From positions 396,761 through 460,760 of the forward strand of contig CAJXLF010000001.1 in the NCBI GenBank assembly GCA_913055805.1: a DNA stretch of 64,000 bases, in the 5' to 3' direction. Positions 56,398-57,672 of the stretch are shown here, in pieces. The position numbers and the translations under genes were made by a program. How positions within the stretch are numbered: position 1 is the first letter of the stretch; each line of letters begins with the position of its first letter. This DNA is from an uncultured Salinisphaerales bacterium. Lineage in GTDB: Bacteria > Pseudomonadota > Gammaproteobacteria > Nevskiales > CAJXLF01. The notes under the pieces are model-generated. The model worked only from the letters and a program-made list of their open reading frames with translations. It searched no databases and was not told the origin of the DNA.

Positions 56398-56871
56398 ATG
56401 AATATTAACGCCACCCTGTTAGGCCAGGCGATCACTTTTGCGATCTTCGTCTGGTTCACCATGAAGTATGTATGGCCGCCGATGATGCAGGCCATGCAGG
56501 AACGTCAGAAGCGGATCAGCGATGGTCTGGCGGCTGCCGACCGTGGTGCCCGTGCGCTGAACGAGGCGCGTGAAGAGTCCGAAAAACTGCTCAAGGAAGC
56601 CCGCGAGCAGGCTCAGGAAATCCTGTCTGCCGCCAACCGGCAGGCCAATGAAGCGGTAGAGAATGCCAAGACGCAGGCCCGTGAAGAGGGTGAGCGAATT
56701 GTCAATTCCGCCAAGGCCGAGATCCAGACGGAAATTACCCGGGCCCGCGATGCGCTGAAGCAGGAAGTAGGTACCCTGGCGATTGCCGGTGCAGCCAAGA
56801 TCCTGTCCCGCGAGGTGGATGGCAAGGCGCATGCCGACATCATCGACGATCTCGCCGGCCGGATTCAGTGA
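56398..56871 (+). CDS. atpF: ATP synthase Fo subunit b
   Basis: A 157-residue subunit b: one N-terminal membrane helix ([22 protein letters not shown]) followed by a long charged coiled coil rich in Glu, Ala and Arg that reaches to subunit delta. The stop codon (56869-56871) abuts the first base of a 267-bp inverted-repeat element, so the normal short link to atpH is lost. Confidence 0.97.
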
Positions 56872-57138
56872 AGGGCCTGCTGACCATTATTTGACGGTGT
56901 CGCCGGCGGCCGTAAAGCCCCAGCGCACGAAACGAGGAGAGAAGTTTGCTTATTGCAAATGAACGACGAGTGACACAGCGATGGGGCTTTACGGCCCCGT
57001 CCCGCAGGGTTGCTTGCCCAAACCCGCCATACGGCGTTGCTCGCCTTGCCCTTAGAGTGGCTAAGGGCGGCAGCGTGCGCCTTGCCTGGCAGACTTGGGC
57101 AAGCAACGTCATCCGTCAAATAATGGTCAGCAGGCCCT
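56872..57138. mobile_element. 267-bp MITE-like element with perfect 26-bp terminal inverted repeats inside the atp operon
   Basis: 56872-56897 and 57113-57138 are perfect inverted copies (26 bp, beginning AGGGCCTGCTGACC). Inside are two further stems: GGCCGTAAAGCCCCA at 56908-56922 pairing with 56982-56996, and GTTGCTTGCCCAA at 57009-57021 pairing with 57095-57107, the latter enclosing GCCCTTAG/CTAAGGGC (57048-57055 with 57061-57068). No coding frame is convincing. The whole would fold in RNA as a closed multi-branched structure. Neighbouring atpF and atpH lie 0 and 3 bp from its ends. No clear target-site duplication is visible. A non-autonomous transposon or a structured RNA are the two readings. 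Confidence 0.85.
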
Positions 57139-57141
57139 AGT

Positions 57142-57672
57142 ATGGCTGAGCTGAGCACCCTGGCCCGTCCCTACGCCAAGGCCGTTTTCGAACTGGCCCA
57201 GGCGGAAGGCAAGCTGTCGGACTGGTCCGAAAGCCTGGCCTCTCTGGCTGCCGTGACGGCGGCTGAAGAGGTCAAGGCGTTGCTGGGCAATCCGCATGTT
57301 ACTGACGCCAAGTTGGCCGAACTGGTCACCGAGGCCGGCAAACTGGATGCTGCCGGTGCCAACCTGGTACGTCTGCTGGCGGCTAATCGCCGCTTGCATG
57401 CCGCTGGTCTGATTGCCGAGCAGTACGAAGCCATGCGCGCTGAAGCTGAAGGCCGGGTCGATGTCGACGTGGTTTCGGCCAGTGAACTGTCCGGCGAGCA
57501 GCAGGACAAGCTGGCCAAGGCATTGACCAAGCGTCTGGGCCGCGAAGTGCGTCTGGAATGTCGTGTAGAACCCGAGTTACTGGGCGGTGCCGTGATTCGT
57601 GCCGGCGACCTGGTGATTGACGGTTCCCTGAAAGCTGAATTGCAGCGCCTGTCACATAGTGTGGCGCATTAA
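57142..57672 (+). CDS. atpH: ATP synthase F1 subunit delta
   Basis: A 176-residue subunit delta that links the b stalk to the alpha/beta head. Typical are [14 protein letters not shown] at the start, [13 protein letters not shown] in the middle and [29 protein letters not shown] at the end. Only 3 bp separate it from the inserted element; the best ribosome-site match (AGCAGG, 57129-57134) lies inside the element's right terminal repeat, so its translation now depends on that sequence. Confidence 0.97.

Follow-up and report, generated by a model that had tools for sequence, protein, structure and literature searches.

The window analysed here is the whole 64,000-nucleotide stretch of DNA and belongs to a genome (G000) of 3.38 Mb in 21 contigs. 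In it, atpF and atpH, coding for F0F1 subunit B and subunit delta (NCBIfam), are separated by a 267-bp element with 26-bp terminal repeats. The initial annotation had this element starting on the base after the atpF stop codon and ending 3 bp short of the atpH start, and the element and both of its edges were borne out to the base, the 3 bp being AGT. The features of the junction are as follows.

56869..56871, + strand: atpF stop codon TGA; the element starts on the next base.
56872..57138, + strand: whole element, very probably a MITE; 267 bp, without conserved reading frame, absent at atpF-atpH in 29/29 relatives.
56872..56897, + strand: left terminal inverted repeat, forming the 5′ arm of the closing helix P1; an IS5-type end, GGGCCTG, then a stretch private to the atpF-atpH copy (CTGACCATT).
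56908..56996, + strand: hairpin domain P2; its stem pairs 56908-56926 with 56978-56996, the inner loops are purine-rich and conserved, and an apical stem lies near 56944-56960.
57009..57107, + strand: hairpin domain P3; its stem pairs 57009-57029 with 57087-57107 and an inner stem pairs 57048-57055 with 57061-57068; apparently homologous to P2, inverted.
57113..57138, + strand: right terminal inverted repeat, forming the 3′ arm of P1; pairs with the left arm at 26/26 positions and includes the region directly upstream of the atpH start codon.
57139..57144, + strand: AGT, the right flank, followed by the atpH start codon ATG (57142-57144); preceded by the element's final T, the flank gives TAG, as is usual on the right side in the family.

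The perfect internal stems described earlier (15 bp, 13 bp and an inner 8-bp stem) are all present. The P2 stem is perfect over 15 bp and extends to 19 bp at 95%, the P3 stem is perfect over 13 bp and extends to 21 bp at 86%, and the inner stem of P3 pairs GCCCTTAG with CTAAGGGC. The multi-branched plan read from these stems was recovered in the predicted fold, a three-way junction of P1, P2 and P3. The folding energy of the element was −163.1 kcal/mol as RNA (z = −12.1) and −94.6 as DNA (z = −11.7), and no shuffled sequence was as stable in either case, indicating that its folding is far beyond chance. No intrinsic terminator was found inside the element, and a promoter search gave one promoter-like match, which was within chance.

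The junction was then compared among relatives. As the initial annotation had assumed, atpF and atpH normally lie a few bases apart: the gap was −1 to 26 bp in all 29 relatives with a readable junction. The same sequence was looked for at this place in distant relatives and was absent from each of these 29 junctions; therefore the element is an insertion at atpF-atpH. An assembly artefact is unlikely, because four more copies were found in the same genome and the family is present in many other genomes.

Using the atpF-atpH element as query, matches were obtained in 43 of 100 genomes, mostly of the same order, and a consensus query (E ≤ 1e-8) gave matches in 21 of 229 genomes sampled evenly across Gammaproteobacteria. 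Copy-rich genomes include G036 with approximately 40 copies and G029 with approximately 35. The named holders include Pseudomonas abyssi, Solimonas terrae, Marinobacterium sedimentorum and Azotobacter chroococcum plasmids, and relatives of the element are carried by plasmid records of Azotobacter, Halomonas and Pseudomonas. Phage cargo was considered and rejected, since phages gave no match to the element and no viral contig held the one exact pattern looked for. The length is nearly constant even at ~70% identity, most copies being 266-280 bp (about 268 bp). The open frames inside the element are short and at non-conserved places, and the stem score of the terminal inverted repeats was >15 in 98 of 110 loci scanned. 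Rfam gave no match at the gathering score, with sub-threshold chance matches only, and no description of this element family was found in open-access papers. The family is thus large and apparently undescribed within Rfam and the open literature.

Five copies in total were found in G000 when the genome was checked for further ones. Over matched pieces, the other four share 82-92% identity with the atpF-atpH copy, and the gene pairs holding the five are atpF-atpH, nqrA-nqrB, sufC-sufD, flgJ-flgK and a membrane protein with an AMP-ligase-like gene. All five copies lie between codirectional genes in operons and are sense-oriented, a pattern that reflects either the small sample or something local. 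In four of the five, the element edges lie within ~4 nt of both the stop codon upstream and the ATG downstream. At the fifth copy (L003, G000:C5 ~205523-205789) the sufC frame enters the element for ~23 codons (GPASPDSVVSPEAVKSQRAEQGV) before a stop, and by its reading frame SufC here would bear an element-encoded tail. Two copies, at G000:C2 ~273399-273737 and G000:C4 ~178606-178957, have in common an insertion of ~72 bp in P3, and their arms differ. The insertion itself resembles another palindromic repeat (GCGGCCCTTCCCTGGGCCGC).

Signs of mobility were seen in other genomes. For a G036 copy (genus g10), nine sister genomes have the same flanking gene pair without the element; this genus includes Solimonas terrae if the named locus L092 and L015 of G046 are one and the same, as their sequence suggests. 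At least 10 near-identical copies, each at a different site, were found in G062 and represent a recent burst. These copies appeared at contig ends, as unjoined left halves (L135-L144) and right halves (L146-L151), and most had YTA to the left and TAR to the right. The possibility that the private 9-nt stretch of the arm is an inverted copy of the target was rejected, one end sequence being common to many G062 sites.

The same target preference was observed over the family, whose flank form is YTA/GGG...CCC/TAR (slashes at the element edges): TA..TA flanks were present in 41 of 90 members and YTA..TAR in 36 of 90. With neighbouring genes called by a codon model, 3′ gene ends abutted the element in 52/90 cases versus 12/91 for 5′ ends (p = 2e-10). 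The frequent location at stop codons follows from the target itself, as TAA or TAG is part of YTAR and the left TA becomes TAG with the first G of the element.

A search with the end motif led to an 831-bp insertion sequence in G062 (C145:545-1375), with the ends TAGAGTCTGTTAACAATT and TAGGGCCTGTTAACAATT, also given as TAGRGYCTGTTAACAATT. It has two overlapping frames with matches to PF13340 and PF01609/PF13586 (DUF4096/DDE_Tnp_1), that is, an IS5-family transposase, which is probably expressed by frameshifting at an A-run and may belong to the IS427-like subgroup. No sign of the interior of the element was found in this insertion sequence outside its ends. G062 thus has both the element and an insertion sequence with matching ends, and for two further lineages the insertion sequence was found in a member of the same genus or family. 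Elsewhere in the order, DUF4096 transposases have ends such as TAGGGCGTGTTGCCGTTTC (G041, G005) and CCTAGGGCCTGTTAACACTAAC (G052). The G029 copies matched the first type at 16-18 of 19 positions and the second at 12-14 of 20, whereas the G036 copies matched the first at 12-15 of 19 and the second at 15-18 of 20. The outer ~18 bp of family members therefore match the ends of same-order IS5-family insertion sequences in a lineage-specific manner, which, as judged from sequence, speaks for mobilisation in trans and for an exchange of ends between transposases. DUF4096 insertion sequences in relatives (L248, L250, L255, L259 and L270) showed more IS5-type end types, e.g. TAGAACTCATCTCATAAA and CCTAGGCCGAATCGACATTCA. 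Seven loci (L022, L027, L154, L182, L183, L277 and L278) have the same interior with quite different ends (AGAGCTTATCCGTGAATAA type), for which no matching insertion sequence was found.

The element is multicopy and holds no conserved gene, has empty sites, a recent burst, a target preference and IS5-type ends. We therefore consider it very probable that it is a non-autonomous MITE with IS5-type ends that was mobilised in trans and entered a TA between atpF and atpH, where it would be nearly silent and tolerated. An IS5-family transposase would have acted in trans to place it there. An insertion in a stop codon would restore that codon, since TAA or TAG is part of YTAR and the element has G as its first base; the hit would thus be nearly silent and tolerable. 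In the mRNA, the closing helix P1 is predicted to set the atpF stop ~3 nt from the atpH start, so that reinitiation could continue translation, and the right end carries, 7 nt upstream of the ATG, a CAGG that perhaps aids atpH reinitiation. Some observations count against this explanation. The atpF-atpH copy is flanked by AA..TA, with one mismatch and no clean target duplication; random insertion rarely gives the all-sense pattern of the five G000 copies; and a search for PF13340 alone found no such gene in G000 or in copy-rich G036. Moreover, an ordinary MITE needs no covarying interior, and the one described below is conserved over many genera.

Covariation was assessed in an alignment of 91 copies, which are non-independent, and pair types were counted after clustering at 80%. 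About 90% of the P1, P2 and P3 cells were Watson-Crick, with at least two Watson-Crick types at 24/28 pairs of P1, 27/28 of P2 and 15/19 of P3. This strong covariation in all three helices would be in keeping with a structured RNA used by the host in polycistronic mRNAs, setting AtpF/AtpH ratios via RNase III/RNase E cleavage or reinitiation control, with transposition having only spread it. The sense orientation of all five G000 copies inside operons points the same way, and ERIC and Correia transcripts are cleaved by RNase III / RNase E (review PMC10969869). An RNA constraint predicts G.T (G.U) pairs greatly above A.C on one strand. P2 showed such a sense-strand preference (117 G.U vs 37 A.C; 54/13 after clustering), partly from two columns and in a structure picked by RNAalifold, which leans towards G.U. 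However, there was no preference in P1 (63 vs 75) or P3 (24 vs 29). Orientation over the family was random (28 ++, 24 −−, 18 −+ and 16 +−), tight junctions included (7 ++, 7 −− and 7 +−), the operons are unrelated, many copies lie between convergent or divergent genes, and Rfam has no matching family. Because orientation is random and two of the three helices lack an RNA signal, a regulatory RNA role is not supported, and we regard this explanation as improbable. The proposal of the initial annotation that the element sets subunit ratios is accordingly not supported, the position at atpF-atpH being explained by the YTAR preference at stop codons. It had also left the element as either tolerated or used in the operon; toleration is favoured, and regulatory use is not, given the unrelated operons and the random orientation. 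The atpF-atpH copy can be explained without any host function.

The two internal hairpins resemble each other: P2 was similar to the reverse complement of P3 (mean z 4.2, versus 0.8 in direct orientation), and by its sequence the interior resembles a single domain present twice, once inverted. A pair of homologous hairpin domains facing opposite ways, together with one Y1_Tnp gene in G000, would suit a REPIN-like element moved by a RAYT (Y1) transposase. However, Y1_Tnp is absent from copy-rich G036 and G062, the latter with its recent burst, and the element has IS5-type ends and TA flanks, making this origin extremely unlikely; membership in the REPIN/RAYT class was rejected on the lack of a RAYT (Y1) transposase in those two genomes. 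The sole Y1_Tnp (RAYT-like) gene of G000 lies at G000:C1:472608-472934, ~12 kb right of the window. The terminal arms were also compared. Among the five G000 copies, the number of differences over the 26 arm positions is 7-11 for left arms and 6-10 for right arms, the interiors differ at about 8-15%, and three copies are 26/26 paired in the arms. The two copies with the common P3 insertion showed 10 and 6 arm differences versus 23 of 287 interior positions. That the arms change together and stay complementary is suggestive only, because part of the divergence may predate insertion; had all of it arisen afterwards, the three perfect copies should show some unpaired positions. Arms and stems might be kept paired by a DNA process and not by selection, namely template switching in replication hairpins, which would copy arm to arm. 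It would fit the perfect pairing of three copies with interiors 10-15% apart in a genome where no cognate transposase was found, the equal frequency of G.U and A.C in P1 and P3, and the greater difference in arms than in interior between the two copies with the derived insertion. On the other hand, the element ends agree with the ends of same-lineage insertion sequences, which is unexpected from drift alone, the unpaired internal loops are conserved rather than erased, and the possible age of the arm divergence weakens the argument. We hold template switching to be unlikely; it could also come in addition to the MITE explanation.

Returning to the trans-mobilised MITE, its interior is conserved over many genera with covarying stems, and the unpaired internal loops are conserved too. 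The folded interior would have been kept while the ends were exchanged, and it may bring the ends together, protect the transcript or bind a protein. A broader and more tentative possibility, which we put well short of even, is a modular mobile hairpin: a two-domain interior would persist over genera and swap ends to ride different IS5-type transposases, with arms co-changing, and the fold would join the element ends and, in the mRNA, the neighbouring stop and start, allowing life in essential operons.

Among known systems, IS5-family MITEs are likewise short, non-coding and multicopy, with terminal inverted repeats in common with an insertion sequence, YTAR with TA on both sides, and empty sites. 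MITEs usually derive from a single insertion sequence by shortening, whereas here the interior is unrelated to the insertion sequence and conserved with covarying stems, and the ends vary by lineage, following different insertion sequence ends. ERIC and Correia elements have TA flanks and are also structured intergenic repeats with many copies, co-transcribed with neighbouring genes. In contrast to them, as set apart by description rather than alignment, the present family has another length and, as far as known, another sequence, and occurs in Gammaproteobacteria outside the enterics with a clear IS5-family partner. Coxiella QMITE2, compared by description rather than sequence, is among the closest known systems and has another host group. 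REPINs with RAYT also have two hairpins in inverted orientation, but the hairpins here are much longer, with IS5-type ends and TA flanks, and two copy-rich genomes have no RAYT. An integron attC site was another candidate identity, which the element ends presumably do not fit.

The family, present in roughly one in ten of the gammaproteobacterial genomes sampled and within operons that include atp, nqr, suf and flg, is an annotation target missing from Rfam and from the open papers searched. It departs from the usual picture of MITEs as shortened remains of one insertion sequence, the interior being conserved and the ends exchanged. It also provides natural tests of how a bacterium translates two coupled genes with a 267-nt hairpin between them, and of how the two arms of a transposon stay complementary.
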